Part shown: positions 1 to 19,653 of the stretch, in pieces
Layout: every line of letters begins with the position of its first letter
Numbering within the stretch: position 1 is the stretch's first letter
From: Candidatus Omnitrophota bacterium
GTDB lineage: Bacteria > Omnitrophota > JACPQZ01
DNA length: 20,704 bases
Direction: 5' to 3'
Assembly (NCBI GenBank): GCA_016190205.1
Contig: JACPQZ010000072.1
Location: 1 to 20,704, forward strand
The notes under the pieces: generated by a model
Told to the model about the DNA's origin: nothing
Seen by the model: the letters and a program-made list of their open reading frames with translations, nothing else
Database searches by the model: none
Made by a program: the position numbers and the translations under genes

Positions 1-2423
1 TCATAATTCCGGCTTGCTATGGGGCTCGCGGAGCGGTTGGTGCAGTAGTAAATATCCACATTCGTAAAAGAAGTGCCGCCGCCCAGGGTCCTGATGTCGT
101 TCTGGGTGTCGTTCACCCGCCAGACCTCGGCCCCGGAATCAGGCGCAATCATTCGAAGCGACGGGATAATCTTAAAAGTCGCCGTGATATCCAGGACGTC
201 GGCGTCATCCGAATCTATCACCTTAATCTTAGCCAGGTTGCTGGTCTGGGTAAGGGGCGGCGTCCAAGGGTAGGTCCCGTCCACATTCAGGGTCAAGTTA
301 TCTGCGTCGACATCCGACTGGATTAGAGTGAAGTTGTTGCCGCCGTCCATGGAATAATGGATATCCACGGTGGCCGTGGTAGCATCCAGGGTCCACTTGA
401 TGTTGCGTAAGTAACCGGTCGGCCAGTCAGGGTTTGACTCAAAAGGAGGATCGTTGATCGTAATCTTGCCCCGCACCTCAAAGTTGGCATTGCTCGGGTC
501 AACGACTTCCGTCGGGTAGGTGACCGATTTAATGCGTACCTGGGTAGTCTTGCCGGAGGCCTCCTTGGGGATTGGGTCCCAGACATATTCCCCGTACCCT
601 AAGCTCCCGCCAGTGTCCTCCGCAATATTGGTCGCGCCCGAGACAGCGGTCCAGGTAGCATGCGGCGCATCGATCGAATACTCAAGCGAGATGTTTCCGG
701 TGTTAGTTCCCCAGTAGTACCACTTTATCTTGCGCGTCGTGTCTCCCACGTACCACAGTTCAGTGCCGTTTGGCTCAATGATCTGCACCCTGCTAATAAT
801 TGTAAAATTCGCATTGGACTGGTCCGTATAGCCATAAGAGGCATTGTTGTTCGTGATCTTGACGAGCACGTCGGTCTCTTTTTCGGTGGCGGGCGAGGGC
901 ACTTTCCAGGCAAAGCTTAAGGAGCCCGGGGTCACGGCCGCGCCGGATGACCCGTAGACGTCTGTTGCAGTCGCCCAGCCGGAGCCATCGTTCCATTCGA
1001 GTTTCAAGGTCGTGAGCTTGCTCGAACTCGAGGAGGTCCAGGTGATATTTTGCGTCGTCCCGACCTGCCAGCTTTCATTCCCCACGGGCGAGGTCACGTT
1101 GAACGGGGCAAACTCGACCACCTGCCAGTTGACGTCTGCCGCGAGCTCGGCCACGTCGGCGTCGTTGCGGCGCGTAAAGGTGGCCGTGCTCTCATTGGAT
1201 ACCACCGCCCGCACGAGGGTACTATGCATGTTGATGGTCTGCGCGCTTCCGGTCGTCGTACCGGCCGAGGCACTGGTAATAGCAAAGGACCGTTCGGGGT
1301 CGAACACCGGAGAAAGGGTGGCCGTGGTCGAATAGACGGTTGCGCCATACTGAAAGCTCCCCCTCTGTACCTTGCCCTCGTCCTTCAACTCGACCACGTA
1401 CCATGCGATGGAGCCCCCGGTGTCTCCTGTGCCGGTCCCGACGCGGTTAAAGGCGACCTGTGACCCGCCCGCATCGAGCTTGCCCCGGATCTCGGTCAAG
1501 GCTTCTCGCCCGGCCGCCGCCTCCCCTATGGAATACGTGTACATAAGAAACGACTTCGCGGCATTCACGGTGGGAGAAACCGTGGCGGTGGCCGAGGAGG
1601 CGGACGCAGCCATGTCGAGAATACCGGTTGTGACCGTCGTATCCGTCAAAAACTCCAGCACCTGCCAGAAGAGCGTGATCGAGGCGGCCGAGGTGTTCTG
1701 GTTTGCCTGTGTCAGGCCGGAGCGCGTGATAACCAGCTTGTGCGCCCCGGGCGTCGTGGTATCAAAGGTCATGCGGAACTTCCAGGCCTCGTTTTCGTCG
1801 GCGAACCACTCGATGGAACGGGTCGTATAGAAAGGCGCTGCGGTGCTCGCGTTGATGTCGAGGATGGCGATATTCTTGCTGTACGTCGTTTCCGAGAACG
1901 TCGTCATTCCGGTCTGCACCCGGAACCCATTGTTGAATTCGACGGCATTTGTCTGGAGGTCCGCCGCGACCAAGGCCAGGGGGTCGTCCCGCACGCGCTC
2001 GATGTTGATAGTAGCCGCGTCCTCGAAATTCACGCTGAACATCCCGAGGCCTTCTCCGCCGTCCTTGCGCAGCGACTGCTGAACGGAAGAGTCGTGCAGT
2101 TCGCTCGTCTCAACGGTCATGAGGAGCGCAGTCTTATCCATGGCTACCGCGGTGATAGTCTGCTGTACCGTAAGGGTATTGTCGGCGATAGCCGCCGTCT
2201 GTGACTGCACTTTCTTGACCTGCGAGGCCTCGGCGGGGACGGGCCCTGCCGCCTGCATGAGCTCTTGCCAGGGTTCGGGGACATCCACGGGTGTTGGAAA
2301 AACGGTCCCGAAGAAAATCAGGCTTTGAATAAGAAAGCAGGCCACGGGCCGGAAGAAACTCTTGCGCTTGAGCGTGAGAGCCCCCGGTGAAACCCGCTTC
2401 ATGCGTATTACTGGTTCACTCAT
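1..2423 (-). CDS. Large secreted Ig-like repeat protein, C-terminus beyond window
   Basis: The minus-strand frame stays open from 2423 to the left edge (about 807 residues) and is cut there. Numbering here is from the ATG at 2402. The first 40 residues are basic then hydrophobic (about 18-37), like a signal peptide. Residues about 160-425 hold repeating beta-rich units ending in W-x-V-[VL]-E-[FL] (near 248, 335 and 425). From about 437 come at least four Ig-like units of the Ser-Thr-rich/Kre9-KNH type with the pattern P-x-G-x-E-x-W-x-V-G, I-x-W and N-A-N-F (near 440, 541, 647, 751). Such proteins are usually exported or surface bound. ATG 2423 directly follows an in-frame stop, overlaps the end of the TPR gene by 8 bases and has GGGG six bases upstream; ATG 2402 is the alternative. 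No enzymatic motif is visible. It is the last visible gene of the riboswitch-led operon. Confidence 0.85.
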   Translation of the reverse strand, partial: MSEPVIRMKRVSPGALTLKRKSFFRPVACFLIQSLIFFGTVFPTPVDVPEPWQELMQAAGPVPAEASQVKKVQSQTAAIADNTLTVQQTITAVAMDKTALLMTVETSELHDSSVQQSLRKDGGEGLGMFSVNFEDAATINIERVRDDPLALVAADLQTNAVEFNNGFRVQTGMTTFSETTYSKNIAILDINASTAAPFYTTRSIEWFADENEAWKFRMTFDTTTPGAHKLVITRSGLTQANQNTSAASITLFWQVLEFLTDTTVTTGILDMAASASSATATVSPTVNAAKSFLMYTYSIGEAAAGREALTEIRGKLDAGGSQVAFNRVGTGTGDTGGSIAWYVVELKDEGKVQRGSFQYGATVYSTTATLSPVFDPERSFAITSASAGTTTGSAQTINMHSTLVRAVVSNESTATFTRRNDADVAELAADVNWQVVEFAPFNVTSPVGNESWQVGTTQNITWTSSSSSKLTTLKLEWNDGSGWATATDVYGSSGAAVTPGSLSFAWKVPSPATEKETDVLVKITNNNASYGYTDQSNANFTIISRVQIIEPNGTELWYVGDTTRKIKWYYWGTNTGNISLEYSIDAPHATWTAVSGATNIAEDTGGSLGYGEYVWDPIPKEASGKTTQVRIKSVTYPTEVVDPSNANFEVRGKITINDPPFESNPDWPTGYLRNIKWTLDATTATVDIHYSMDGGNNFTLIQSDVDADNLTLNVDGTYPWTPPLTQTSNLAKIKVIDSDDADVLDITATFKIIPSLRMIAPDSGAEVWRVNDTQNDIRTLGGGTSFTNVDIYYCTNRSASPIASRNY

Positions 2424-3120
2424 TCATTGCCCCATGGTATAACTGCGTTTCTTCTTGAAAGCCCAGCACCGCGTTAAGATTGGCCTGTGCCGTGTCATAG
2501 CGGGGGTTCAAATCCAGCGCCCGGCGGAACTCATCGGCCGCCTCCCCCAGCCGGTCTTGTTTGTACAGGGCAACCCCCAGATTATTGTAGAGCTGGGGCG
2601 TCCTGGCCCCATACTCAAGGGCGCTCGCGTAATGGAGCGCCGCCTGCTCGTACTTGTCCCCTGCGGCCAGCGCGAGCCCTAAATTATAATGGGCCTCGGC
2701 GTAGTCCGGCCGGATTTGGAGGGCCATGCGGTAATCCTCCTCCGCCCCCTTGAGGTCCCCTTCCTTCATGCGCATGGTCGCCCGATTGCTATAAGCATCG
2801 AAAAAACGCGGGGCGAGCCGGATGGCTTCTTCATAGTGCCCCCTCGCTTCATCTACCCGGCCGAGCTGGGCCAGGGCGTTTCCGAGATTGTTATGGCCCT
2901 CGGCGTATTGCGCATCCAGCGCAAGGGCCTGGGTATAGTAGTCAACCGCCTTTTCGGGGTTGTCCTGTTTTAAACAATCATTGCCGAGCCGCACGAGCTC
3001 CGAAGGGCTCGTCCGCTCCAAATCTGATGCGGGGACAAGGAACATGAGGGCCAGTGCACCGCATGCCGCGGCCGCCAGCCCGCATGCCCACACCATACTC
3101 CGTAAATTCAGAATCTTCAC
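2416..3120 (-). CDS. Membrane-anchored TPR protein
   Basis: This 234-residue protein has an N-terminal hydrophobic segment at about 9-30, acting as an anchor or signal. Five consecutive 34-residue tetratricopeptide repeats follow (about 39-208) with the standard spacing: Y/H-x-x-L-G near the start of a repeat, and A-x-x-x-Y/F plus A-L-x-L-x-P near its end. TPR arrays are protein-protein interaction scaffolds; here it would lie in the periplasm. The start is GTG 3120, preceded by a GAGGTGA ribosome site. The gene lies 4 bases after its upstream neighbour and overlaps the next start, so translation is probably coupled. No partner can be named from sequence; the co-expressed Ig-like protein is a reasonable candidate. 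Confidence 0.9.
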   Translation of the reverse strand: MKILNLRSMVWACGLAAAACGALALMFLVPASDLERTSPSELVRLGNDCLKQDNPEKAVDYYTQALALDAQYAEGHNNLGNALAQLGRVDEARGHYEEAIRLAPRFFDAYSNRATMRMKEGDLKGAEEDYRMALQIRPDYAEAHYNLGLALAAGDKYEQAALHYASALEYGARTPQLYNNLGVALYKQDRLGEAADEFRRALDLNPRYDTAQANLNAVLGFQEETQLYHGAMNE

Positions 3121-3124
3121 CGAA

Positions 3125-3586
3125 TCACCTCGAGGTCATCGGCCCGGCCGCCGGCCGGACAAAGGTAATCCCGCGCGCTTTTCTCTTACCGACGCTTTTC
3201 TCGCGCGCCACCGTTCCGTCACTTAATGTCTGACCGTCGTATTCTTCAACAACCTCGTCAAATGAGATCTGGACCGCGTCTCCATAATGGATTTCGGAAA
3301 GGGCGTTCTTGCGTTCCAGCGCCTCGCTCCCGTCGAGCCAGAATCCAATTTCGGATTCCTCCCCCGTCGTATTATTGCGGTCGTACACGATAGAGATGTA
3401 ATCCGAGTCAACATAGGAAACCTGGCCCGAGAGCGACTTCGCTTCGGTACGCTCGACCCAGTTCTTCTTAACGCCCACGGCCTGCCCCTTCGGCCCCTGC
3501 GCCCAAAGGGAGGACGAGTCCGCCGCCCCTAATATAAGGAGGACGGAAAGAACCGCCGCTTCAAAAACAGAAAAAAAGGGCTTCAT
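3125..3586 (-). CDS. Small secreted beta-rich protein of unknown function
   Basis: About 153 residues with a signal peptide: M-K-P-F-F, a hydrophobic run, then a probable cleavage site after L-W-A-Q. The mature part holds a beta-rich domain of roughly 100 residues with S-G-x-V-S-Y-V-D-S-D-Y-I-S-I-V-Y, L-E-R-K-x-A-L-S-E-I, G-D-A-V-Q-I-S-F-D-E and a final I-T-F-V-R-P. I do not recognise a characterised family. The GTG at 3592 would add two residues; ATG 3586 is preferred because an AGGAG site lies 9 bases upstream. Spacing to the genes on both sides is short (4 and 12 bases), so it is in the same operon. A small periplasmic barrel is inferred from strand-like alternation only. Confidence 0.8.
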   Translation of the reverse strand: MKPFFSVFEAAVLSVLLILGAADSSSLWAQGPKGQAVGVKKNWVERTEAKSLSGQVSYVDSDYISIVYDRNNTTGEESEIGFWLDGSEALERKNALSEIHYGDAVQISFDEVVEEYDGQTLSDGTVAREKSVGKRKARGITFVRPAAGPMTSR

Positions 3587-3598
3587 CCGCACTATCTC

Positions 3599-4030
3599 CT
3601 ATAAACTCTTAAACGAATACTTCGTTATAATTTCCTTCTTGTCTTCAAGCGTGAGCCGGCCCGACATAAGCCCGTCATAGAGCTCGCCGTGCAGGAAGGC
3701 CTTGGACCCGTCGTCCGCGACCTGCATGCTGTCAAATGTAACGGTGCCGTCCACCTCGACATGCACGGTGAAATTCGAGGGGCCGTAGCCCAGGGCCGCG
3801 AGCTCTTCGAAAGTCACTTTATTGTTCTCGAAGCTCACCACGTCGGTCGCGAGTTTCCCGCTTCCCTCTACGAGCTCGTACTTTACCTGGTAGCCGGTGC
3901 CCATGAGCTCCGCCTTTTTGGCTTGAACCAGCTCCTCCGGAGAGAGGGGAGCAGCCGCCTCCACGCTCGCCGCCATTCCGATGAAAAGCCCCAAAACCGC
4001 AACGATCAAAAACCCCTTAAACATGTTCAT
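3599..4030 (-). CDS. Small secreted protein with the window's recurrent barrel-like domain
   Basis: A 143-residue exported protein: signal peptide in residues 1-26 (hydrophobic core then A-S-V-E-A-A-A), followed by one small domain. It aligns by eye with the C-terminus of the transposase-derived protein at 4043-5290 and with the protein at 5719-6435. Shared features are G-x-x-W/Y-x-V/I, a D-x-x-x-F strand, L-x-x-x-G-Y-x-P-S-N/Y, T-x-x-x-x-M/V-Q, a G-E/R-L-x-G/D-x-x-x-S/K-G turn and a terminal Y/F-S-F. The fold may be lipocalin-like (inference); no catalytic residues stand out. ATG 4030 follows a strong AGGAGG site; GTG 4033 and ATG 4024 are alternatives. It is the second gene after the riboswitch, 12 bases from the first. 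Confidence 0.85.
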   Translation of the reverse strand: MNMFKGFLIVAVLGLFIGMAASVEAAAPLSPEELVQAKKAELMGTGYQVKYELVEGSGKLATDVVSFENNKVTFEELAALGYGPSNFTVHVEVDGTVTFDSMQVADDGSKAFLHGELYDGLMSGRLTLEDKKEIITKYSFKSL

Positions 4031-4042
4031 CACCCTCCTCCC

Positions 4043-5290
4043 TCAACCGTTCAGATTCACCCGCACGCCCGTAAACGAAAACTCGCGGCTGATGCCTTCA
4101 GCCGCGTGCTGTGTCATAAAGCCTTTTAAGTTTCGCCCGTCCCACTCACCGTGCCAGCGCACCACCTCACCCCTCTCGTTCGTTTGGACCGATTCCCAAA
4201 CCGTTAAGTCGGGGCGCGTCTTGCGGATGACGTAGCGGGAAGGCGGGATGCCGCTTTTTCCCAGAACCTTCGAGGCAACCACCTGGTTTTGAAATTTGAG
4301 GCGGTCCCTGACGATTTGAGCAGGATCATTCTCTCCCGTGTGGAGCTCCGTGAGCTCGATGTCCCACACGGAGCCGTCCAGGTTATACGGCTCTAGCCGT
4401 TCCCGGTAAACGATCTGAACCTCAACCTTCGGACCGTCAGCGAGAGGAGCGGGGACCGCCGGCCTTTCCGCTACTGTCGCGGGCGCAACGGAATTCTCCC
4501 ATAAAGCGCTTAATGAAGGCCATCCCAAAAGCGCGGCCGTCCCGATCAGAAGCCCCGCAGCCGCATAGCCCAGAATGGGGAAGAAGGGCACGGGCCGCCC
4601 CGCCCTCTTACGGGCGATCTGCCTTGCGCTCCTTGCCATCTCTTCCCGGACAAGCATGACGAAATCCCTCGAACCCACCACCCGCTTGTGCTGGAAGAGC
4701 CTCTCAAACCCTTCGGACTCCTTGTTTTTCTTCGAGAACGCGCCTACATAGGCGGCGTACTCCGCGCGCGTATCGGCCGATTGTATCCGGCCAAAAAGCT
4801 CCCTGACCTCCTCGGCAAGATCCAGGGCGGGGTTACACTGTCCGAGATAACACCCCAGACTGGTATGGCGGTACTCACGCGGGCTTTCAACAAGTCCCAG
4901 CCTCGCCGGGGCCGAGTGCATGTGTGCCGTGAGCCTCAAGAGATAGGAGTCCTTATCCACAAGCACCGAACGGAACCGCTCTTGGAACAGGTGCCCCTTT
5001 TTGCCGTAGCGGCTGTTGTAGATTTTTGTGTAGGTAGAATTTAAGGCGTGCATGATGGTGGAGATCGTGACCTCGTTCTTGAGTTCGATCAGGAGATGAA
5101 GGCGGCTCGGAAGGAGGGCATAGGCAAAGAGCTTAAACCCGAACTCTTTCTTGTAGCGGTTGAGGAGATTGATATAGTTTTGATAGTCCTCATCGTCATA
5201 AAAACAAGCCTGCCCGAATCCCTCGTAGGAGGAGACCGATGTCACGTAATATAGGCAATTCTCTAAATAAATCCTGGGCGGCCTCGGCAT
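4043..5290 (-). CDS. Catalytically dead RAYT transposase domain fused to membrane helix and small periplasmic domain
   Basis: 415 residues. Residues 1-150 match the REP-associated tyrosine transposase (RAYT, Y1_Tnp) family: M-P-R-P-x-R-I start, F-x-D-D-E-D-Y-x-x-Y, G-F-K-L-x-A-Y-A-L-L-P, G-K-K-G-H-L-F-Q-x-R-F and V-D-K-D-S-Y-L-L. Active family members have an H-x-H pair and a tyrosine in a Y-I-x-x-N-P-V-R-A segment. Here the pair reads R63-L64-H65, and the tyrosine position is H123 within A-H-M-H-S-A-P-A-R-L-G, so DNA cleavage is not expected. A membrane helix follows (about 236-257), then residues about 300-412 carry the same small domain as the genes at 3599 and 5719. The DNA-binding-like part would thus be cytoplasmic and the C-terminus periplasmic. 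ATG 5290 has an AAGGT site. It is the first gene downstream of the riboswitch and terminator. Confidence 0.88.
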   Translation of the reverse strand: MPRPPRIYLENCLYYVTSVSSYEGFGQACFYDDEDYQNYINLLNRYKKEFGFKLFAYALLPSRLHLLIELKNEVTISTIMHALNSTYTKIYNSRYGKKGHLFQERFRSVLVDKDSYLLRLTAHMHSAPARLGLVESPREYRHTSLGCYLGQCNPALDLAEEVRELFGRIQSADTRAEYAAYVGAFSKKNKESEGFERLFQHKRVVGSRDFVMLVREEMARSARQIARKRAGRPVPFFPILGYAAAGLLIGTAALLGWPSLSALWENSVAPATVAERPAVPAPLADGPKVEVQIVYRERLEPYNLDGSVWDIELTELHTGENDPAQIVRDRLKFQNQVVASKVLGKSGIPPSRYVIRKTRPDLTVWESVQTNERGEVVRWHGEWDGRNLKGFMTQHAAEGISREFSFTGVRVNLNG

Positions 5291-5310
5291 TTTTACCTTT
5301 TTGCCTTTCG

Positions 5311-5338
5311 TCCCACGTCCGACGTCCCACGTCCGACG
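5311..5338. repeat. 14-bp tandem repeat, two perfect copies (intergenic)
   Basis: The 14-base unit tcccacgtccgacg occurs twice head to tail. The same two-copy array occurs inside the PPIase gene at 6978-7005. Each unit contains overlapping cacgtc/gacgt half-palindromes. It is likely a dispersed element. Confidence 0.85.
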
Positions 5339-5353
5339 TTTTTTGTATTCCCA

Positions 5354-5388
5354 TGCCTGGCACCTTTGCGCCCGTGCCTGGCACCTTT
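5354..5388. repeat. Pair of REP-like palindromes next to RAYT-derived gene
   Basis: The 14-base sequence tgcctggcaccttt occurs at 5354-5367 and 5375-5388, 21 bases apart. The second copy extends to a perfect 11-base palindrome, gtgcctggcac. RAYT proteins classically act on short palindromes flanking their own gene; this pair lies 64-98 bases upstream of the RAYT-derived start codon. Confidence 0.75.
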
Positions 5389-5400
5389 CCCCTGAAAATC

Positions 5401-5442
5401 AAAAAAAACTCCAGACAACTTCCCATACAGGAAGCCTGGAGT
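5401..5442 (-). terminator. Intrinsic terminator downstream of riboswitch (expression platform)
   Basis: On the minus strand ACTCCAG pairs with CTGGAGT, and CTTCC pairs with GGAAG inside it with a small bulge around the loop. Eight T residues follow directly (5408-5401). It lies about 47 bases after the aptamer and before the first gene of the operon, so it probably decides whether RNA polymerase reaches the downstream genes. Confidence 0.8.
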
Positions 5443-5488: not shown

Positions 5489-5580
5489 TCACTTTCGGCA
5501 GCTTGCCGGTCCACCAAACAGCACGGCGGATGCACCGCTTTGCGTCCTCATGTTGCCATGAGTTTGCCGTTTCGAGTGAT
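5489..5580 (-). ncRNA. Cyclic-di-GMP-I (GEMM-I) riboswitch aptamer
   Basis: The minus strand carries the hallmark GEMM-I core: GGCAAAC, a CTCATG/CATGAG stem capped by a GCAA (GNRA) tetraloop (5562-5547), then GGACGCAAAGC. A second helix follows (GGT-x-CATC with GGTG-x-ACC), then AAGCTGCCG. The closing P1 helix forms between TCACT plus CGGC at the 5' side and GCCG plus AGTGA at the 3' side. In the family these elements bind cyclic di-GMP, with the GNRA loop docking on the second helix. It lies between a sigma70 promoter and an intrinsic terminator, which is the classical transcription-attenuation layout. I could not resolve a convincing antiterminator, so ON or OFF polarity is unknown. Confidence 0.85.
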
Positions 5581-5718: not shown

Positions 5719-6435
5719 CTATCGCCCGCGACCCATGCGCTTCCACCAAGGGAGGGGTTTCTCCTCCACCTGGGGCTTGGGAGCAGGTTTCGGCGCCGCC
5801 TCCTGCGTCGGTTCAGGCTCGGGCGCGTCAGGAACGGGAGACGCCTCCGGTGCCGGTTCCACCTGCGGGATGGGCGCCGCCACAGGCTCGGGCTCTAGCT
5901 CCGCCCCCTCGGAGCTCACCGGAGCTTCCTCAACCGCTGGCCTACTCAAAACGCCGCTAAAAACAAAGGTTGTCCGCTGCCCCTTTTTAGTCTGTTTCGT
6001 TACGACACCGGAAATGGCATCCCCTCTTAACTCGGCCCGCACTACGGCCGTGTCTTCCTTTTCGTTCCGCTTCATGGACTGGAGTATGAAGGTTGCAAAA
6101 TCCCTGGATAAGGTCGGCGTATAATTCGTGGGCGTGTAACCGTCCTTTTCAAGGCTGTCTGTGCTCAAAAGCACCCCCCTGAAGTGAATGGTATCTGCAT
6201 AGGACGCCGCTTTTCCCTCGCGGTCGTTTACCTGGATGTCCCAATCCGTTCCATCCAGTTCCTCCACCTTGGCGGCCAGGACCTCGTCCGGGTTAATCTC
6301 TTCCTCTTGAGCGGCCACTCGGGTGGGATAGAGGCTGACGCTAATCAATAGAGAACATAATACGAGAAGTAGTTTCACAAGTGCCGACGTGTCATTGCGA
6401 ACCCCGCGAAGCGGGGTGAAGCAATCTCCTTCCAC
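5719..6435 (-). CDS. Secreted protein with recurrent barrel-like domain and Pro/Glu-rich tail
   Basis: About 238 residues. A hydrophobic signal segment (V-K-L-L-L-V-L-C-S-L-L-I-S-V-S-L) ends near V-A-A-Q. Next comes the same small domain as in the genes at 3599 and 4043 (T-D-W-D-I, D-T-I-H-F, L-x-x-D-G-Y-T-P-T-N-Y, G-D-A-I-S-G, F-V-F-S-G). The C-terminal tail of about 80 residues is rich in P, E and A and ends in a basic W-W-K-R-M-G-R-G-R; such tails often span peptidoglycan. GTG 6435 is preferred because GGGAGG lies 5 bases upstream. GTG 6450 overlaps the previous stop, and GTG 6378 starts just before the hydrophobic segment. With the longer starts, the first residues are encoded by a dispersed repeat (6393-6426). 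It is the last gene of the secretin operon. Confidence 0.8.
   Translation of the reverse strand: MEGDCFTPLRGVRNDTSALVKLLLVLCSLLISVSLYPTRVAAQEEEINPDEVLAAKVEELDGTDWDIQVNDREGKAASYADTIHFRGVLLSTDSLEKDGYTPTNYTPTLSRDFATFILQSMKRNEKEDTAVVRAELRGDAISGVVTKQTKKGQRTTFVFSGVLSRPAVEEAPVSSEGAELEPEPVAAPIPQVEPAPEASPVPDAPEPEPTQEAAPKPAPKPQVEEKPLPWWKRMGRGR
6393..6426. repeat. Dispersed palindromic repeat at the N-terminal end of a gene
   Basis: The sequence attgc, ga, accccgc, gaa, gcggggt, gaa, gcaat is a nested inverted repeat of the type often scattered in many copies between bacterial genes. Here it overlaps the first codons of the secreted protein at 5719-6435 and contributes the residues C-F-T-P-L-R-G-V-R-N-D. 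Confidence 0.75.
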
Positions 6436-6446
6436 ATCAACCTCCC

Positions 6447-8432
6447 TCACTTGACATACGCCTTAACGATTTTTTGCTCATCCCTGGGCTTATCCTGCGC
6501 ATCCGTCTTTTCATTCTCTATCCCGCGGACCACATCCATGCCCGCCCGGACTTTGCCGAAGATGGTGTGCTTCTTATTGAGCCACGGCGTCGGGGCGGTC
6601 GTGATAAAAAACTGGCTTCGGTTGGTGTGGGGACCGGCGTTCGCCATAGCTAGAATTCCCGCTTCGTTAAAGGCGAGGCCGTCGGCAAACTCATCTTGGA
6701 AGTTCCCGCCCCACAGAGATTCGCCGCCTCTCCCCGTCCCCGTGGGATCCCCTCCTTGGAGCATGAATCCCTTAATGACCCTGTGAAAGATAATACCATC
6801 ATAATACCCCTTTTTGACAAGACCTACAAAGTTTTCGCACGTCTTCGGTGCCTTGTCGGGATAAAGCTCTATCTCAACCGCGCCCTGATTTGTCTCGAGC
6901 ACGACAACCGTCTCATTCTGCGTTTGCTTTGCCACTGCCTCCTCCCTCTTTTCTCCTCCCTCCACCTTCATCTCACGTCCCACGTCCGACGTCCCACGTC
7001 CGACGTCCCGCTTCTCTCCTCCCTCCTTCTTCCTTCCTCCTTCCTTCTCCAGGGCGTAATCCCGGACGCCCGCTCCGGCCACCAATGCCGCGAGGTACTG
7101 CTTTCTCTTTTCATGCTTTTTTTGGTGAACGAGGGCCTGGCGGAGCTGTTCGCGCTTGGCATCGTCATAACGCTCCACGGTGCCCACGCGCTTGCTCAAA
7201 AGCCGGAAGACGCACGGTCCATAGATGTTTTGACCCGCGATAAAGCTGCCCAATTCGGCATCCAGGATGCGGTAGGAATCGTCCTTAGGTATTTTCCATA
7301 GATCAATCATGGCCTCGATGGACATGGTGTTGATCCAGGAGGCCCCTTTTTGGCCGTCTTTATCGCGCGCGGCGGTATAGGCTTCTTTCCAGGGCGATGG
7401 GTCCGCGGCCATTTTTTTCCGGAGCTCCTCCGCCCCCTCCGGGGTGGCGCACATCATGTACTCGACCTCAAACGAGCTCTGCTGGTTCAAATGCTTTTGT
7501 TTGATTTCATCCTCCGTCACGCTCACGTCCGGATCGATCGGGGCAGACGTATATTTCTCGATCTTTAAGACGTCCCGCAGCCTATTCTCAAAGGTCAGGG
7601 CATCTTCGTTGAACATCTCTCTTACCCAGAGGCGGTACCGCTCGGACCCCCTTTCGAGGCCTTGTTCACTCAACAGGTTCTTGAGTTCCGACTCCAGCTC
7701 TGCGGCGTCCACCTCAAGCCCCAGCCGCCCAATCTCACGCATATAGATAAGGTAATTCCACGCCTCCGCGCGCCTGGCCTCCTCCGTGTCGAAGCCCCTG
7801 CCGCGCCTTGAGATTCGGGTCGCGTTCGTAAAGTGATAGTCGAATTCCGCCTGCGTCACCGGCTGGCCAAAAACCTCCCCAACGATTTCCGATCCCTTGC
7901 CCGCTGATGCGGCCTCCACCGCACTTCCCGCGAATAGAGATAGTAGGCAAACTATCGTCGCAAGTCCGCCGCGTAACGACTTGTTGGGGAAACGCCCGGC
8001 TTGGACCCTGCAGGCCGCTTCGGCTGTTTTAGGTGTTCTCCGCAGACGGCGAGGGAAAGAGAACGGCTGCTGTTTGAGGCCCGCTTCGAGCGCGGCTCCT
8101 GCGAAGCTCCTCGCGGATTCCCGGACGATGAAGGAGCGAAGCAGGGGAAAATCAGCCAGGGGGCTGATTTTGGGAGCGCGAGGGCTTAAGCGGGCCGAGT
8201 TCAGCCGTTCCCCGAGCCGGCCAGGAGAACACCGACCCCCTGCATGCTTGGTGGTACGGGGGGAAAACAGACGGCGGCCCAAGGGGCCAAGACGGGCGTT
8301 TTCACTCAACAATTTTAAGCTCCAGGGTGTCGGATTGAATGGGCTCCCTAAAGACATCGAGAGCGATCTCCGGTCCGAATACGTTCTCATAATGCGCGGT
8401 GATTTTATAGACCCCCGTTTCGTCGAAATCAT
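6447..8432 (-). CDS. Periplasmic SurA-like chaperone fused to cyclophilin-type peptidyl-prolyl isomerase
   Basis: The longest frame is 661 residues, but the genuine protein probably begins near residue 150: a signal-like segment (about 151-175) ends in V-E-A-A-S. A SurA/PrsA-like N-domain follows (about 182-315), then a degenerate parvulin-like part (about 320-415), a charged K/E/G/R linker (about 462-503) and a complete cyclophilin domain (about 507-659). The cyclophilin keeps F-H-R-V-I-K-G-F-M-L-Q-G-G-D (549-562), M-A-N-A, S-Q-F-F-I-T (606-611) and W-L-N-K-K-H-x-I-F-G (617-626), so prolyl isomerase activity is expected, probably on exported envelope proteins. Residues 1-150 overlap the preceding gene and read through a 202-bp repeat element. 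I find no ATG, GTG or TTG between that element and the signal segment, so the start is unresolved. The linker contains a repeat insertion (residues about 476-486). Confidence 0.85.
   Translation of the reverse strand: MISTKRGSIKSPRIMRTYSDRRSLSMSLGSPFNPTPWSLKLLSENARLGPLGRRLFSPRTTKHAGGRCSPGRLGERLNSARLSPRAPKISPLADFPLLRSFIVRESARSFAGAALEAGLKQQPFSFPRRLRRTPKTAEAACRVQAGRFPNKSLRGGLATIVCLLSLFAGSAVEAASAGKGSEIVGEVFGQPVTQAEFDYHFTNATRISRRGRGFDTEEARRAEAWNYLIYMREIGRLGLEVDAAELESELKNLLSEQGLERGSERYRLWVREMFNEDALTFENRLRDVLKIEKYTSAPIDPDVSVTEDEIKQKHLNQQSSFEVEYMMCATPEGAEELRKKMAADPSPWKEAYTAARDKDGQKGASWINTMSIEAMIDLWKIPKDDSYRILDAELGSFIAGQNIYGPCVFRLLSKRVGTVERYDDAKREQLRQALVHQKKHEKRKQYLAALVAGAGVRDYALEKEGGRKKEGGEKRDVGRGTSDVGREMKVEGGEKREEAVAKQTQNETVVVLETNQGAVEIELYPDKAPKTCENFVGLVKKGYYDGIIFHRVIKGFMLQGGDPTGTGRGGESLWGGNFQDEFADGLAFNEAGILAMANAGPHTNRSQFFITTAPTPWLNKKHTIFGKVRAGMDVVRGIENEKTDAQDKPRDEQKIVKAYVK
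6978..7005. repeat. 14-bp tandem repeat inside the PPIase gene
   Basis: Two perfect copies of tcccacgtccgacg, flanked by partial units, identical to the array at 5311-5338. In the coding frame it reads D-V-G-R-G-T-S-D-V-G-R within the linker, flanked on both sides by near-identical purine-rich codons for E-G-G-E-K-R. Confidence 0.85.
8032..8233. repeat. 202-bp structured element with terminal inverted repeats
   Basis: The ends are a perfect 10-base inverted repeat: ggtgttctcc (8032-8041) and ggagaacacc (8224-8233). Inside are further self-complementary parts, for example aaaatcagcc/ggctgatttt (about 8147-8171) and cctgc-gctcct/aggagc-gcagg arms. It separates the end of the Ig-like gene (8302) from the signal peptide of the PPIase. 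It could be a MITE-like element or a structured RNA; I cannot name a family. Confidence 0.6.
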
Positions 8433-9934: not shown

Positions 9935-11962
9935 CTAGTTTTGTGCCCTCACGAGCGGCTCATAGTCACGATAGGTTTTCATGAAACCGGCTACAGGCGA
10001 CTCTCCCTGTTCGACGGACTCGCCGAGCCCCCCCAGCTCAAATCGCCCTGCTTCGTCGGTACCCTTGCCCTGCAAAAGGCCTGTCGGCCGGTCGTAATCC
10101 ACCGGGGGCTTTGGCTCGACCCCGTCAGGAATCCCCAGACCGCTTCCGGAAACCAGCTTGTCCCCCTCCACAATGTGCGGCGTCATGAGCACCAAAAGCT
10201 CTTTCCACTCGTTGTCCTGGCTATAGTCCCGGAAGAGCTTCCCAAGAAGGGGGATGTCGGATAAAAACGGCGCGCTGTCTTCGGAGGTCTTTTTCTCATC
10301 CTTCCTTAAACCGCCGATAATAATAGTGGTGCCGTCCTTGACCATCACGGTAGTCTGCGCCGTGGAGGTGTCCACGATGGGGATCTGGTTGCCGCTGGGC
10401 GTCTTCAGAGTGCGGACGACGCTCGAGATCTCCGGCTTCACCTTCATGGTCACATATCTGTCTTGATTGATGGTGGGGGTGACCGAGAGTTTAATGCCCA
10501 CGTCCACGAAGCTCACGTTCTCTGCAACCGTCGAGGTGGAAGTGCCCTGGGTGGTGGTCGTAGTGACAAAGGCCTCGCGCGTACCCACGTGGATGGTGGC
10601 CTCCTGGTTATTCACAACAGCCAGCCGGGGATTAGACAGGAGCTTGGTTTCTCCCAATGTTTGCATGAACTTGATCATGACCTCCCAATCCTCATCGGTC
10701 GTCGTAGAGCCGATGAAGAGTTTCTCCGAAGGAAATACCTTAGACCCCGCCGTAGGGACTGTGGTGGTCGCCTCCGTGTCGTAATCTACGAATTCGGATA
10801 TCTGGCTCAATCCCGTGCGGCTTAAGGGCCTGAAGGGATAGCTGCCGATAAACTCAAGCCCGGACTTGCCCAGCCGGTCAAAAAGACCCTCCCACTCAAT
10901 CCCTTTGGTCGCATCATCGGCCAAGGAAAGCTGAATGACGCTTGTGTCAATCAGGACCTCGCGGGTCTTCTCATCCAGGCGGATAATGAGTTTCTCGACC
11001 TCCTGCATACGATCCGGGAGGGTTCTTACAACGATCTGATTCGTCCGCTCGTCTTTTTGCACATTCCCCAGATTCTTGGCATCGATGTGCTCCTCCAATA
11101 GCGGGAGGACTTCTTCCACCTTGGCGTATTTCAGGCTGAAGACCTTCGTCTCGTTGTGTGTTTCCAGGGCCTCGATCGCGCGCTCCACCTCAATAATCTT
11201 GGCCGGCGTATCCAAGAGAATCGCCGTTCCCGACTCTTGGTCCACCAGCGCTCTCCCCACGCTGCTTTTCAATGAGTCGATGACCGTAAACACCTGCGCG
11301 GGGGAGGCATACTGGATCCGGAAGATTTTGAGCTGGCGGATGTCGTTGTATTTCTTCCCATACCGGGTCTCGTACTCCCCCTCCGTCATGACGTGGTAAA
11401 TACTCCCCTGCTGCTCGTAGGCCAGATCGTTGCTTCGCAGGATAATATCGAACACATCGCGGATGGGCACGTCTTCCACCAGAAGGGCCAGTCTTCCGGA
11501 GACGTTCTTGCTGATCGTGATATTCAATCCGCCCTTGAAGGCTAAAAATTTTAAAGCATCCGTGATATCGATATTTCGCAGATCCAGCGAGACGCGCTCG
11601 TTCATTCCCTTCACCCCTTGAGCCTTTCCGATGCCGGAGGCCAGCCCGCCCTCCTGGGGCTCAGCTGTCTCTGCGATGAGCCGCTCCCACAATTCTTCAT
11701 CAGTTTCCTCCTTTTCATCGGTCACTTCCGGCGTGACGTCTTCACCTTCCGCCGAAGGCCCGGCATCCGCTCCTCCCGCCACCTGGTCAAAGGTGAGCGA
11801 GGTCTCCGGGGTATCGCTCGTACCCGTCAGATCTTCATCCGTGTACGTTTGAGCGGTCGTTTCCTCCCTTTTTTCCTCCTCCTGTGCCTCCTGCGCTACA
11901 CAGTGATAAACCGGGGCCGCAAGAAATACCAGCACCAGAACGATGAGACGCACGCGACTCAC
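9935..11962 (-). CDS. Secretin, PilQ/MshL/GspD-like outer-membrane channel
   Basis: 675 residues, starting at GTG 11962 in a 4-base GTGA overlap with the gene before it. It has a signal peptide (1-24), then an acidic E/D/T-rich stretch to about 110. The N0/STN-like domain is at about 122-192 (V-S-L-D-L-R-N-I-D-I-T-D-A-L-K-F-L, V-P-I-R-D-V-F-D-I-I-L). Two N1-type domains follow (about 211-268 and 272-335). The secretin core covers about 336-600, with the signature F-L-S-D-I-P-L-L-G-K-L-F (566-577) and L-V-L-M-T-P-H-I-V (590-598). Secretins form a multimeric gated pore for type IV pili or type II secretion. The linear order ATPase, GspC/PilP-like protein, secretin and TPR protein resembles the MSHA cluster. 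A tail of about 70 residues follows the core. Confidence 0.95.
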   Translation of the reverse strand: MSRVRLIVLVLVFLAAPVYHCVAQEAQEEEKREETTAQTYTDEDLTGTSDTPETSLTFDQVAGGADAGPSAEGEDVTPEVTDEKEETDEELWERLIAETAEPQEGGLASGIGKAQGVKGMNERVSLDLRNIDITDALKFLAFKGGLNITISKNVSGRLALLVEDVPIRDVFDIILRSNDLAYEQQGSIYHVMTEGEYETRYGKKYNDIRQLKIFRIQYASPAQVFTVIDSLKSSVGRALVDQESGTAILLDTPAKIIEVERAIEALETHNETKVFSLKYAKVEEVLPLLEEHIDAKNLGNVQKDERTNQIVVRTLPDRMQEVEKLIIRLDEKTREVLIDTSVIQLSLADDATKGIEWEGLFDRLGKSGLEFIGSYPFRPLSRTGLSQISEFVDYDTEATTTVPTAGSKVFPSEKLFIGSTTTDEDWEVMIKFMQTLGETKLLSNPRLAVVNNQEATIHVGTREAFVTTTTTQGTSTSTVAENVSFVDVGIKLSVTPTINQDRYVTMKVKPEISSVVRTLKTPSGNQIPIVDTSTAQTTVMVKDGTTIIIGGLRKDEKKTSEDSAPFLSDIPLLGKLFRDYSQDNEWKELLVLMTPHIVEGDKLVSGSGLGIPDGVEPKPPVDYDRPTGLLQGKGTDEAGRFELGGLGESVEQGESPVAGFMKTYRDYEPLVRAQN

Positions 11963-12642
11963 TTGAGCTCCATCTCTGCACCCTGATAGCTTAGGATGAC
12001 GTGATCCCGAAAGACGGCCTCGATCTTGAGGCCATTTTCCAAGCTGTCCCCGCGCTTTAAGAAATATGTTTTTTGAGCGCTGGTATCTTCTATCATAACG
12101 TCCGGGTCGCTGGACCAGGAAATCCCCACAATATCCAGATTCTTCGCGAGCTTTTCGATTTCCGGAATCTGTTTCTGCTCCTCGACAATCTGCTCAACCT
12201 TTTCCTCGACCGCCTGGATATTGAACACATCCCTTCCCCGGATCCGGTCCTGGTAAAATCCCTCGTTCTGCAAAGGCGTGTCCACCGGCCGGGTCACCGG
12301 CCTTTCGACCGCGGGAGTGAGGACAAGATCTAAAGGTTCCTCATTCATCTTTTGCATGTTTCGATAGATCGTCATGCTCAAGTAAACACCCAACCCCGCA
12401 ACACATAACATCAAACAACGGTTCAGGACCTTTAAATTAAGCGCTAACTTTCCGGCGCCCAGCGTGCGGGTCTTCCCCTTCAAAAAGGAGAACCGCCCCA
12501 CCAGCCCCCCCCAGGATAAAAGGTTTAAGCCCTGGCGTTTGATCGCCGCTTTTCTCTGGGCAATCCCCTTAGGGTCTTCAATCAGCTTTAACAGCTGCTT
12601 TTCAGGCGAGAGGTTGGAGCTTTCCTGTACCATAGCGAGCAT
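11959..12642 (-). CDS. GspC/PilP-like inner-membrane secretin partner
   Basis: 227 residues. A cytoplasmic N-terminus of about 90 residues precedes a single membrane helix (about 94-111). The periplasmic part ends in a GspC homology-region/PilP-like domain (about 163-227): L-D-I-V-G-I-S-W, P-D-V-M-I-E-D, F-L-K-R-G-D and a final V-I-L-S-Y-Q-G-A-E-M-E-L. In type II secretion and type IV pili these domains connect the inner-membrane platform to the N0 domain of the secretin. It overlaps the secretin start by 4 bases and lies 3 bases after the ATPase gene, so the operon link is firm. The exact family (GspC, GspB, PilP or MshK) cannot be decided by eye. Confidence 0.85.
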   Translation of the reverse strand: MLAMVQESSNLSPEKQLLKLIEDPKGIAQRKAAIKRQGLNLLSWGGLVGRFSFLKGKTRTLGAGKLALNLKVLNRCLMLCVAGLGVYLSMTIYRNMQKMNEEPLDLVLTPAVERPVTRPVDTPLQNEGFYQDRIRGRDVFNIQAVEEKVEQIVEEQKQIPEIEKLAKNLDIVGISWSSDPDVMIEDTSAQKTYFLKRGDSLENGLKIEAVFRDHVILSYQGAEMELK

Positions 12643-12645
12643 AGG

Positions 12646-13569
12646 CTACTTCTGATACACGGGCGCCCCCGCCAAGACCCACCCTGCACGCACCTCCTCT
12701 TCCACCAGGTCCCGAATCAAAACTCGATCCACCACCGAACGATTTCTCATGACCAGCGCCTTAAGGGCGCGGTGACACAGCATGGTGATCTTCCTGGGAT
12801 AGCCGCGGGTAAAATGGAATATCTCGTCGACTGCCCCGTCCAGAAAAAGCTGCATGGAAGACTGGTACCCCGCCTGGCGCAGGCGAAAATCAATGAGCTC
12901 GCCCGTCTCCTCCCGGCACAGGGGGTTTAAGGTGTACTTAAAACTTATGCGGTCGAAAAAGTTCGCAAGTCCCAAGATCATCGAATGGAGCTCGAGCTGG
13001 CCCAGGAGAACGAGCTGGAGCAGTTTGTACTCATTGGTCTCGTAATTCAAGAGGACGCGCAGGCATTCCAGGGTATTGCGATTGAGCTTCTGCGCCTCGT
13101 CAATAATAAGTACGATGGTCCTTCCCTCGGAGACCCCCTTTTGAAACAAAAACTTTTCCAGGGAATCCCTCATCTCGAGCGGCCCCGGACTCGTGGGTTC
13201 GACTTCGCTCACCACTCGCCCTGAGCGACCGTAGGGAGTCGAAGGGCTCGTGGAGGAATGGTTTCCTGTCAGCTCGAAGTTATGCACCAGGGCCGCAAGA
13301 AAATCTTCCTCACGGGCGAAGGAGGGATCCAGGATGATATGGAAAATAAAATCCTCGCGGCACTTAAGTTCCGGGATCAATTTCCTGGAAAGAGTGGTCT
13401 TACCCATGCCTACATCCCCCAGAATGACACTTAACCCCCTCTTAAGTCGCAGCTCGATTAAAATATTGGTCAGGGCGGCTTCGTGCTCCTTCGACAAATA
13501 GAAAAAGTCAGGATCGGGGCTGGTCGAAAAGGGCTCCTTCTCAAATCCCAGCACCTGGTAATAACTCAT
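12646..13569 (-). CDS. ExeA/MshM-like AAA ATPase
   Basis: 307 residues of the ExeA/GspA-MshM group. The N-terminal M-S-Y-Y-x-x-L-G-F-x-x-x-P-F-S-x-x-P-D-P-x-F-F-Y motif is diagnostic. Walker A is G-D-V-G-M-G-K-T-T (about 52-60), Walker B is V-L-I-I-D-E-A-Q, and the C-terminal helical part has F-T-R-G-Y-P-R-K-I-T-M-L-C. It lacks the membrane helix and peptidoglycan-binding tail of ExeA, so it is MshM-like in length. Such ATPases help place or assemble secretins in the envelope. Between the two Walker motifs a dispersed repeat has added 19 codons (13190-13253). ATG 13569 overlaps the stop of the MerR-type gene by 4 bases. Confidence 0.92.
   Translation of the reverse strand: MSYYQVLGFEKEPFSTSPDPDFFYLSKEHEAALTNILIELRLKRGLSVILGDVGMGKTTLSRKLIPELKCREDFIFHIILDPSFAREEDFLAALVHNFELTGNHSSTSPSTPYGRSGRVVSEVEPTSPGPLEMRDSLEKFLFQKGVSEGRTIVLIIDEAQKLNRNTLECLRVLLNYETNEYKLLQLVLLGQLELHSMILGLANFFDRISFKYTLNPLCREETGELIDFRLRQAGYQSSMQLFLDGAVDEIFHFTRGYPRKITMLCHRALKALVMRNRSVVDRVLIRDLVEEEVRAGWVLAGAPVYQK
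13190..13253. repeat. Dispersed repeat inserted in frame in the ATPase gene, with 7-bp direct repeats
   Basis: The 7-base sequence ctcgtgg occurs at 13190-13196 and 13247-13253, so the apparent insertion is 57 bases, exactly 19 codons. The inserted part contains the inverted pair ttcgact (13198-13204) and agtcgaa (13237-13243), and a central ccctgagcgaccgtaggg. The encoded insert reads T-S-P-S-T-P-Y-G-R-S-G-R-V-V-S-E-V-E-P-T-S-P, with T-S-P duplicated at both ends. Confidence 0.75.
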
Positions 13570-14050: not shown

Positions 14051-15499
14051 TCATTCCGTCGCGGTGGGCAGTATGGTGACGGTCGCCTCAATGTCGGGAA
14101 ACTTGCCGTTGATATGCTTCATACCCGGAGGGACCACAAGCCGGGTCTTGAAGGTTTGCGACTGGGTCAAGCCCTCGATGTCTATGGCTTCCGTACGGAA
14201 CACGAGATCGCTCACATCCTCGTTACTGGGAGAAAAGATATCGACCTTGGGGGGATTGACGCGGACGGTATCCACTTTGAATCCCGGAGGGAGGGTTCCT
14301 CTCACCTCGGGCTCAACCCTGACGGAAATAGGCTTGAGCCGGTCTATCTTTAACTTGATGACGGGAGGATTGATGTCATCCACTTTGAAAGAGTCAGGAT
14401 AAGTCACGTTTTCGTCCAAAACGGGAATCGTCTGCGTCCCCTCGGAAACATTCGCGAGATCAAGCGCGATGAGGAGCTCCTTCGGATCGAAGAGCGCGAA
14501 CGAACGCTCGTACCCGCTGAATGTCACCACGGCTGTTTGAGGCTTGGGGTCGACGATAAAAAGATTCGTGTCAAGATTCTTGTAGGCGATGGGCGTCTGA
14601 AACTCTCTTACCACAAGCTCCGTCCGGGGCCCGAAGGCCAGCCAAAGCACGAAGGCTATGGCCACCGCCGCGGCCTTTTCCCGGAGATTCCGGGCCACGA
14701 GGATATTCCAAAGCTGGGTCCTTCCTGACGGATAGCGCTCTCTGAAAAAACCTTCCAGAACAGGGGCCAGCCGGCCCACGCCTTCCATCACCCGGAGCTT
14801 CCCCTCTTCGGCGACAGAAATCCTGCCGCTTTCCTCGGACACGACCAGACACAGGGCATCGGTACGCTCCGTAAGTCCCAGTGCCGCCGCGTGCCTCGTG
14901 CCGGAGAGGCGTGTCTTGGCAAAATTTTGAGAAAGGGGAAGATAACAGGCGAACTTCTCCACCCGGTTGTTGTGAATAATAACCGCGCCGTCGTGCCCCA
15001 TCGAATGCGGGTCAAAGATGCTGTGGAGAAGGGCTTCGCTCACCTGGCCGTCCAGATCGAAACCGCCCTTGAGATGCCGGTCCAGGGGATCCCGCCCCTG
15101 GAGGACCACGAGCGTTCCCACGCGCTTCACCGAGCATTCGGACAAGGTGCGCATGAGAATTTCAATCAGCGGAAAGGCAGAAGACGGCACTTTCCGATAG
15201 GTAAAACCCCAGATCGCAATCCGCTCAAAAAAATGGCGCAACTCCTCCTGAAAGATGATCACCAGGGCAACCAGGAGTACGGCGAAAAAGCCCCTGAAGA
15301 TAAGAATGGTCATGTAGAGCTCGTAGCGGCGGGCCAAAAGATAAACGGCGCCAAAGATTAAAATTCCCACGAGGATAAACGCCGCCCGCGTCTGCTTAAA
15401 CCAGATGAGCACGAGGTACACCAGGGTAGACACAATAGCCATATCCACCAGATCGGCCGACGTAATATGATCCATGTTTTTTACGATAAAGTCGGTCAA
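14051..15499 (-). CDS. Diadenylate cyclase (CdaA-type) fused to YbbR domains (CdaR-type)
   Basis: 482 residues. The N-terminus has about three membrane helices (roughly 17-84). The DisA_N diadenylate cyclase domain follows (about 86-255) with D-G-A-V-I-I-H-N-N-R-V (170-180) and G-T-R-H-A-A-A-L-G-L-T-E (200-211). It makes cyclic di-AMP from two ATP in this family. The usual R-H-R motif reads R-H-A here (202-204). A further membrane helix lies at about 274-290, followed by two YbbR-like repeats (about 295-478), the domain that in CdaR regulates CdaA. In most bacteria cyclase and regulator are two adjacent genes; here they are one. The start is TTG 15499, in a TTGA overlap with the phosphoesterase stop; ATG 15475 is an alternative. 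Confidence 0.93.
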   Translation of the reverse strand: MTDFIVKNMDHITSADLVDMAIVSTLVYLVLIWFKQTRAAFILVGILIFGAVYLLARRYELYMTILIFRGFFAVLLVALVIIFQEELRHFFERIAIWGFTYRKVPSSAFPLIEILMRTLSECSVKRVGTLVVLQGRDPLDRHLKGGFDLDGQVSEALLHSIFDPHSMGHDGAVIIHNNRVEKFACYLPLSQNFAKTRLSGTRHAAALGLTERTDALCLVVSEESGRISVAEEGKLRVMEGVGRLAPVLEGFFRERYPSGRTQLWNILVARNLREKAAAVAIAFVLWLAFGPRTELVVREFQTPIAYKNLDTNLFIVDPKPQTAVVTFSGYERSFALFDPKELLIALDLANVSEGTQTIPVLDENVTYPDSFKVDDINPPVIKLKIDRLKPISVRVEPEVRGTLPPGFKVDTVRVNPPKVDIFSPSNEDVSDLVFRTEAIDIEGLTQSQTFKTRLVVPPGMKHINGKFPDIEATVTILPTATE

Positions 15500-17253: not shown

Positions 17254-18243
17254 CTATACAGGCTCCGGCGGATTTTGAGCGCGTCCCTCCGGTGCCAGTC
17301 GATCTGTCTCAAAAGCAAGGGTGATCCCTGCCAGGCGCACAAGCTGATGCACCATGTTGGCCGTCTCGGTGCTGAAATGAACCCCTTCGCGAAAGCTCGT
17401 AATGTTCACCACACCCACCACGCGGTCACCGACAGCTATCGGGCTGATGAGGGCGGATTTCACGGTCGGCCGGGTCATCCGGTCTCTTACCACCCGGCCC
17501 AGGGATGCCCCGTCATCCAAGAGAAGCGGCCGGCCCTCCTCGAGGACGAGCCCCGCGATCCCCTCACCCTTGCGCAGGCGGGTGCGCCTGGAGATATCCC
17601 GAGACAGGCCTCTTTCCTCCTGCAGGCTCAAATATCCGGTCCCCTCGTCCCAGAGCATCACGGAGCCGGTATCCGCATGGGTCGCGAACAGGATGGCGTC
17701 CAAAAACGCACTTAAAAGTTCCTTCAGGGGTCGATCCCGACGGGTCATCCCGTTTCTCTCCTTAAGAATCATTCGGGACGTCATGTGAAGCAGACGGACG
17801 ACAGACTGAACGGCGCTAAAACTGAAGAGCTTGATCTGGTCGCGGCTCGCCTGAAAGGAAGGGGCATGGACAGCCAGTTCCTGGGCCATGCGCTGTGCCT
17901 CCTGCGCATTCGGCTTGCGGCCCACCGAACAGGGACCCACAATAATCTGCCAATCGTCTACCGGCAGGATAAAGTTGTAAAGTCCAGCATGGCATACGAC
18001 GCCTTCTTCAGGGAATGAAGTAAGGCTTTCGGCCGGCGTATGCTGAACGCAACCGGCGCAGCGCGTGCGGGCAATGCTGGATTCCGGAAGAAGGATATGG
18101 CAGAAATGGGCGGGTCTGGCCGGCTCACCCACTGCGCCGGATTGCGACCGGTAAGTCCGGATCCCTATCTTGAGACAATCGGCGACAAGGTCCTGAACGC
18201 GTGCCCACTCTTCAACGCAGGAATCCGTACGCGACTGGGGCAT
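17254..18243 (-). CDS. PocR-domain and GAF-domain sensor protein
   Basis: 329 residues without a signal peptide. Residues about 8-135 match the PocR ligand-binding domain: F-C-H-I-L, C-A-G-C, a V-C-H-A-G-L-Y-N-F-I-L-P-V-D segment and I-I-V-G-P-C. Residues about 170-315 form a GAF domain (G-S-V-M-L-W-D-E-G-T-G-Y-L-S-L, G-E-G-I-A-G-L-V-L-E-E-G-R-P-L-L-L-D-D, V-V-G-V-V-N-I-T) that resembles the GAF of the neighbouring kinase. It has no kinase, cyclase or DNA-binding output. It lies 19 bases after the NtrC-type gene. It may feed a small-molecule or redox signal into that system; the cysteine-rich PocR part could bind a ligand or metal (inference). Confidence 0.88.
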   Translation of the reverse strand: MPQSRTDSCVEEWARVQDLVADCLKIGIRTYRSQSGAVGEPARPAHFCHILLPESSIARTRCAGCVQHTPAESLTSFPEEGVVCHAGLYNFILPVDDWQIIVGPCSVGRKPNAQEAQRMAQELAVHAPSFQASRDQIKLFSFSAVQSVVRLLHMTSRMILKERNGMTRRDRPLKELLSAFLDAILFATHADTGSVMLWDEGTGYLSLQEERGLSRDISRRTRLRKGEGIAGLVLEEGRPLLLDDGASLGRVVRDRMTRPTVKSALISPIAVGDRVVGVVNITSFREGVHFSTETANMVHQLVRLAGITLAFETDRLAPEGRAQNPPEPV

Positions 18244-18262
18244 AATGAGGCGAGATTCCCCT

Positions 18263-19651: not shown

Positions 19652-19653
19652 CG

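Follow-up and report, generated by a model that had tools for sequence, protein, structure and literature searches.

What does a transposase do once it has been tied to the membrane? HUH transposases are known as cutters of single-stranded DNA. In Candidatus Omnitrophota, a phylum of uncultured bacteria suspected to be symbionts or predators, a contig of 20,704 nucleotides (JACPQZ010000072.1, the window) encodes a protein that combines a RAYT transposase domain with a transmembrane helix and a small barrel domain. It looks like a "jumping gene" that was turned into an envelope-linked gene regulator. The features of the locus are collected in Table 1.

Table 1. Features of the fusion locus in the window, ordered by position
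Feature	Position	Strand	Evidence
Giant secreted repeat protein (start only; gene cut by contig end)	1..2423	-	Downstream long ORF
TPR protein of the operon	2416..3120	-	ORF list and profile match
Small secreted protein	3125..3592	-	25 loci with a same-strand homologue, in the median directly behind the fusion gene
Exported stand-alone copy of the barrel domain	3599..4033	-	Smith-Waterman 72 vs 27 ± 4 shuffled
RAYT - transmembrane helix - beta-barrel fusion protein	4043..5290	-	415 aa ORF
Eight-strand beta-barrel domain, residues 308-412, probably periplasmic	4055..4369	-	AlphaFold2 model and comparisons
Transmembrane helix, residues 242-265	4496..4567	-	Hydropathy and AlphaFold2 helix
RAYT/TnpA-REP-like domain, residues 1-200	4691..5290	-	4ER8 superposition and Y1_Tnp match
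Metal-ligand Asn position (E. coli N119), A127	4910..4912	-	Alignment
Catalytic tyrosine position, H123	4922..4924	-	Alignment
HUH position, R63-L64-H65 where H-x-H is expected	5096..5104	-	Alignment
Palindrome GTGCCAGGCAT, site 2, 21 bp from site 1	5353..5363	-	Leader comparison
Palindrome GTGCCAGGCAC, site 1, proposed operator of the RAYT domain	5374..5384	-	Leader comparison
Intrinsic terminator hairpin and U-tract of the riboswitch leader	5401..5442	-	-18.6 kcal/mol, z -5.4
c-di-GMP-I riboswitch aptamer (RF01051)	5494..5578	-	55.2 bits vs 35 gathering; consensus G at specificity position
Exported protein, barrel domain and Pro-rich tail	5719..6450	-	Smith-Waterman 103 vs 32 ± 5 shuffled
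Secretin	9935..11962	-	PF00263 7e-48; same-strand homologue in 21 loci
T2SS protein C-like	11959..12642	-	PF11356 26.9 bits, just under cut-off 27
ExeA-like AAA ATPase	12646..13569	-	PF13401 1e-17

The open reading frame of the fusion protein is real and lies on the minus strand (start 5290, end 4043). A sequence-only reading of the window had described its first 150 residues as RAYT/Y1_Tnp-like, with the chain running on into a transmembrane helix and a small barrel, and had proposed to superpose a predicted structure on E. coli TnpA-REP. All of this was borne out. Pfam Y1_Tnp matches residues 32-115 with 38.1 bits (cut-off 23), and the NCBIfam equivalog REP_Tyr_transpos covers residues 6-142 with 54.9 bits, under its cut-off of 80. 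An AlphaFold2 model built on 38 fused homologues (mean pLDDT 84.5) displays the RAYT fold, then a helix that coincides with the hydrophobic stretch, and finally a barrel of eight strands. The nearest solved structure to the RAYT fold is E. coli TnpA-REP, 4ER8 (Z 16.6, 2.7 Å over 160 residues). The predicted order is therefore an N-terminal domain of nucleic-acid-binding type, a single transmembrane helix and a C-terminal periplasmic domain. A stretch rich in K and R residues ahead of the helix suggests that the N-terminus lies inside. The barrel domain probably lies outside the cytoplasm, because two flanking proteins that begin like signal peptides are homologous to it, and these exported paralogues back the predicted topology. 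The barrel was also considered as a cyclic-dinucleotide receptor (Cap15, Z 10.7). This candidate was rejected, as de novo and avidin-type barrels also score about 9-11 and the exported paralogues place the domain outside the cytoplasm.

Upon alignment to E. coli TnpA-REP, the window protein proved to lack both the H-x-H metal-binding pair of RAYTs (R-L-H at residues 63-65) and the catalytic tyrosine of the Y-x-x-x-N-P motif (H123), the same residues that had been named from the sequence alone. The asparagine of this motif, a metal ligand in RAYTs (PMC6006769), is replaced as well (A127). The sequence-only reading had regarded conserved loss across homologues with the same fusion as support for domestication, and homologues with the fusion that retain H-x-H and tyrosine as its refutation. 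We gathered homologues with patterns from the fused proteins in relatives, in 384 genomes of Omnitrophota and in named genome contigs. This yielded about 60 distinct fused genes; many of the genomes are fragmentary MAGs, and the unfused controls were fewer. Only about 55 of the 384 Omnitrophota genomes were recorded as carrying a fusion. The fusion system is thus widespread in the phylum, but not universal. The fused proteins form one clade versus the unfused Omnitrophota RAYTs (SH-aLRT 99); the fusion has a single origin in Omnitrophota.

Both histidines and the tyrosine are kept in 26 of 59 fused homologues, while at least one of them is lost in the other 33. Fused homologues with an intact active site thus do exist, and they rule out conserved catalytic loss as a proof of domestication. 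The minimum for the fused part of the tree is 8 changes, or 14 losses when no loss can be reversed, and the substitutes at the catalytic positions are varied (R/E, Q/S, N/C, S/Y and E/N; H, F or Q for the tyrosine). Locus L118 carries two fused genes in tandem, one L-H-Y and the other F-H-Y, and each of the two has a separate aptamer. Catalytic loss is recurrent and diverse, not ancestral. The unfused RAYTs in the tree are catalytically intact without exception (27/27), as are further unfused controls. Since the fused homologues are partly intact and partly dead, whereas the unfused ones are all intact, the fusion came first and catalysis was dispensable afterwards.

The dead fused members are otherwise well preserved. 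Of the positions that both intact groups conserve, they are relaxed at 63, 65, 123, 127 and 142 only. The helix residues Y87, T88, K89 and N92 remain at 97-100%; K89 is invariant in fused proteins and variable in unfused ones. The counterpart of this helix in E. coli TnpA-REP contacts REP DNA (PMC8266576). Pairs of dead fused proteins display a dN/dS of 0.06-0.14 in the RAYT domain, that is, purifying selection. Domestication in the wider sense thus gains support, although not from the argument first put forward for it. Better evidence comes from the single fused clade, the fixed place in the operon, the riboswitch leader, the low copy number of the palindrome and the selection on dead members.

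The leader of the fusion gene contains a c-di-GMP-I aptamer followed by a terminator. The sequence-only reading had recognised neither these elements and the palindromes of the leader nor the barrel domains of the two neighbouring proteins. An aptamer is found within 700 nt upstream in 56 of 60 fused loci and in none of 37 unfused RAYT loci, as counted with a model built from 13 such aptamers, whose training set includes some of the counted loci. The Rfam model by itself detects the aptamer at 12 of 15 fused and 0 of 17 unfused loci. In locus L123 the aptamer is 804 nt away from the fusion gene on its upstream side, and a barrel gene separates the two. The terminator has a counterpart in 48 leaders examined. 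The 3' end of the aptamer pairs better with the loop and 3' arm of the terminator than with its 5' arm, a hint of an OFF switch, although own and swapped pairs score alike. The genome to which the window belongs encodes GGDEF proteins and four c-di-GMP-I riboswitches, three of them besides the one described here. In a single locus (L006:1253-1328, the same locus as L086), the aptamer has an A where the other aligned aptamers have a G. This position presumably sets the preference for c-di-GMP or cGAMP, and to judge from this one base the variant may sense 3',3'-cGAMP.

Comparison of the leaders revealed a palindrome, AAAGTGCCAGGCAC. GTGCCAGGCAC or a near variant occurs at most 260 nt upstream in 52 of 60 fused leaders, versus 0.4 expected in shuffles, and in 51 of the 56 loci with an aptamer, the palindrome is situated between this aptamer and the start codon. 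The palindrome is not the terminator of the riboswitch, as a separate hairpin with a U-tract precedes it. In the 1 kb after the fused genes, we found only two palindrome matches. Fusion genomes mostly contain 0-4 copies; in the window's genome, the 13-mer AGGTGCCAGGCAC occurs three times with at most one mismatch, twice in this leader, and the bare 11-mer has background copies (3 exact, control 1). The layout of REP elements, with palindromes on both sides of the gene and many dispersed copies, was thus not found; the sites are restricted to the 5' side and low in copy number.

This distribution bears on whether the fused proteins are a still mobile or REP-processing RAYT family, the catalytically dead members of which are decaying. 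The 26 members with an intact H-H-Y set would fit such a family. However, the palindrome occurs only about 1-3 times even in genomes with intact fused members and lacks a 3' copy, the operon position is fixed, and the dead members are under strong purifying selection. We consider such a family highly improbable.

Two genomes of the collection contain dispersed, often paired copies of GTGCCWGGCAC by unfused RAYTs. In G092 (L021/L184) there are 25 copies, and the unfused, intact RAYT L021 has the palindrome on both sides, which ties the palindrome to RAYTs; in G208 there are 36 copies, often paired, one of which is adjoined by an unfused RAYT (L185). A mobile RAYT with its REPs would be expected to show this layout. 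The repeats are REPIN-like families with an unusual, non-GTAG palindrome.

Is the palindrome read as DNA or as RNA? Characterised RAYTs bind single-stranded hairpins, and we know of no established case of double-stranded operator binding in the RAYT family. It is possible that what the RAYT domain binds is a hairpin formed by the palindrome in the leader of the nascent mRNA, next to the ribosome binding site. The domain would then repress translation, modulate termination or tether the mRNA at the membrane, so that the giant protein encoded downstream is made beside the secretion channel. In most loci the sites indeed lie 3' of the terminator, 20-150 nt ahead of the start codon. Their orientation is strongly biased (central A in 67 sites, central T in 11), and in the sense-strand consensus AAA-GTGCCAGGCA(C) the 5' AAA is conserved on the sense strand only. 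In some early-branching clades (e.g. L128-131) the site reads GTGC-CAC-GCAC or GTAC-CAC-GTAC, a compensatory change of the stem. These observations, together with the recognition of hairpins by RAYTs, fit recognition of RNA. Against it, second sites often retain only one half of the palindrome, and in several loci there are sites on the upstream side of the aptamer, which are probably not transcribed: some early-branching clades carry an extra copy 60-77 bp ahead of the aptamer, close to the promoter, and the sites of L118 are found only upstream. Where sites are double, the distances between them cluster at 21, 32 and 43 bp, near multiples of 10.5 bp, which is suggestive of duplex DNA, although these statistics ignore the relatedness of the loci. 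Judged on sequence features, promoter-proximal sites and spacing favour DNA, while strand bias and a position mostly in the transcribed leader also fit, and would favour, RNA or single-stranded DNA. Overall, action at the RNA level appears rather unlikely to us.

The gene neighbourhood suggests what is being controlled. A long ORF lies downstream of the fusion in 39 of 41 testable loci, and a homologue of the giant protein from the window is present in 35 loci. The giant protein is rich in Thr and Ser and has Ig-like repeats; Pfam detected almost nothing in it, and Kre9/KNH Ig-like domains in one homologue only. Upstream of the fusion, where the flank allows, we found exported barrel proteins in 32 loci, TPR proteins in 28, a secretin in 21 and an ExeA-like ATPase in 14. 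Giant ORFs of Omnitrophota have been linked to adhesion, in a study from which riboswitches and transposases are absent (PMC10066038).

With such neighbours, the former transposase domain might merely be a cytoplasmic fold within the secretion apparatus of the giant protein, and the palindrome a relic of an ancestral REP-flanked element. The conserved association with secretin, T2SSC, ExeA, barrel proteins and the giant protein is compatible with this, as is the barrel common to the fusion and its exported partners, and common descent would by itself place palindromes next to RAYT genes. However, the DNA-binding helix is conserved in dead members, and the palindrome is kept across otherwise dissimilar leaders, on the 5' side only. 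The sites of L123 stay with the riboswitch leader though another gene separates this leader from the RAYT gene, which speaks against a mere relic. A purely structural role thus seems quite improbable.

We lean towards the view that the fusion is a membrane-tethered autoregulator of the ToxR/CadC kind with a transposase-derived DNA-binding domain, acting on an operon that is also gated by c-di-GMP. A RAYT transposase would have been captured once in Omnitrophota and joined to one transmembrane helix and to a part in the periplasm, which is a barrel in most members and a coiled coil in others. Its cytoplasmic RAYT domain would bind AAAGTGCCAGGCAC in its own operon, either in the leader or at the promoter, and this operator may descend from the REP-like sites of mobile RAYT relatives. 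Catalytic residues would have been lost repeatedly because cutting was no longer needed. The periplasmic barrel, common to co-encoded exported proteins, would sense the envelope or secreted cargo and alter the binding. Expression of the operon, which encodes the giant surface protein together with exported barrel proteins and adjoins secretion genes, would with the riboswitch and terminator depend on both c-di-GMP and the state of the envelope. What the sequences establish is the domain architecture (by prediction and homology), the one-time origin of the fusion, the repeated catalytic losses, the purifying selection, the conserved succession of riboswitch, terminator and palindrome, and the gene content of the operon; palindrome binding, the direction of regulation, the signal of the barrel and the membrane topology are what we infer here. 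The sequence-only reading had envisaged a membrane-tethered, cleavage-dead domain that links the envelope to palindromic nucleic acid. The membrane fusion and this link are supported, with stronger evidence than that reading had at its disposal, but the cleavage-dead state is not general among fused homologues.

Parts of this arrangement are known from other systems. With RAYT/TnpA-REP (E. coli 4ER8; PMC6006769, PMC8266576) the fusion shares the fold, the sequence family and the association with a short palindrome whose 5' foot is conserved. It differs in the added transmembrane and barrel parts, in the frequent loss of catalytic residues, in a palindrome that is present 5' only and at low genomic copy number, and in the riboswitch control of its operon. 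A survey of RAYTs from 2018 restricted its tree to sequences in which the HuH and Y motifs are intact, and the word "membrane" is absent from its text (PMC6006769). ToxR/CadC-type regulators (PMC5430869, PMC6320335, PMC11856585) resemble the fusion in a predicted cytoplasmic DNA-binding domain, one transmembrane helix, a periplasmic sensor-like domain and a candidate operator near the target operon, but they use a winged helix instead of the HUH/RAYT fold; binding and regulation by the fusion are proposed here. TldR proteins, RNA-guided regulators derived from TnpB (PMC13418256), likewise turned a transposon-encoded nuclease into a regulator, but they stem from another protein family and have no membrane anchor. 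Among the c-di-GMP-I riboswitches that control adhesins (for example B. thuringiensis Bc2-cap, PMC4933901), a c-di-GMP aptamer likewise precedes the gene of a large surface protein; here, the leader also has a palindrome, and the first gene encodes a membrane-tethered RAYT. In a literature search of incomplete coverage, we came across neither a membrane-fused RAYT nor such a leader.

It could equally well prove right or wrong that these loci represent a new class of transmembrane regulator, in which a domesticated HUH transposase is the DNA-binding domain, the operator comes from the palindromic end of the transposon, and a c-di-GMP riboswitch in the same leader lets second messenger and envelope state jointly control a secretion operon for giant surface proteins across a phylum. 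The roughly 60 loci display an HUH transposase that was captured once, anchored in the membrane, placed under riboswitch control and kept under selection while its active site decayed many times independently. The same phylum retains a mobile-type RAYT with the palindrome at both ends, which makes the route from transposon end to operator traceable step by step. The system also opens the control of giant surface proteins in Omnitrophota to experimental tests.

A few further observations were made at these loci. Two records under other names, L113 (MBAA01000064, labelled Lokiarchaeota CR_4) and L096 (labelled Planctomycetales), contain loci of the Omnitrophota type. They are probably misbinned or misnamed; transfer between lineages is possible. 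In the window, a CdaA-type diadenylate cyclase (DAC, CdaA_N and YbbR; 14051-15499, minus strand) is encoded a few genes upstream of the c-di-GMP-controlled operon. According to the ORF translations, a GAF protein, an NtrC-type response regulator and a GAF histidine kinase stand in a row ahead of the secretion genes (17254-20703, minus strand). Finally, GTCGGACGTGGGACG occurs as tandem pairs at 5309-5337 and 6976-7004 (minus strand), one in the fusion leader and the other inside the coding sequence of a PPIase linker, and these are the only four copies in the whole genome.
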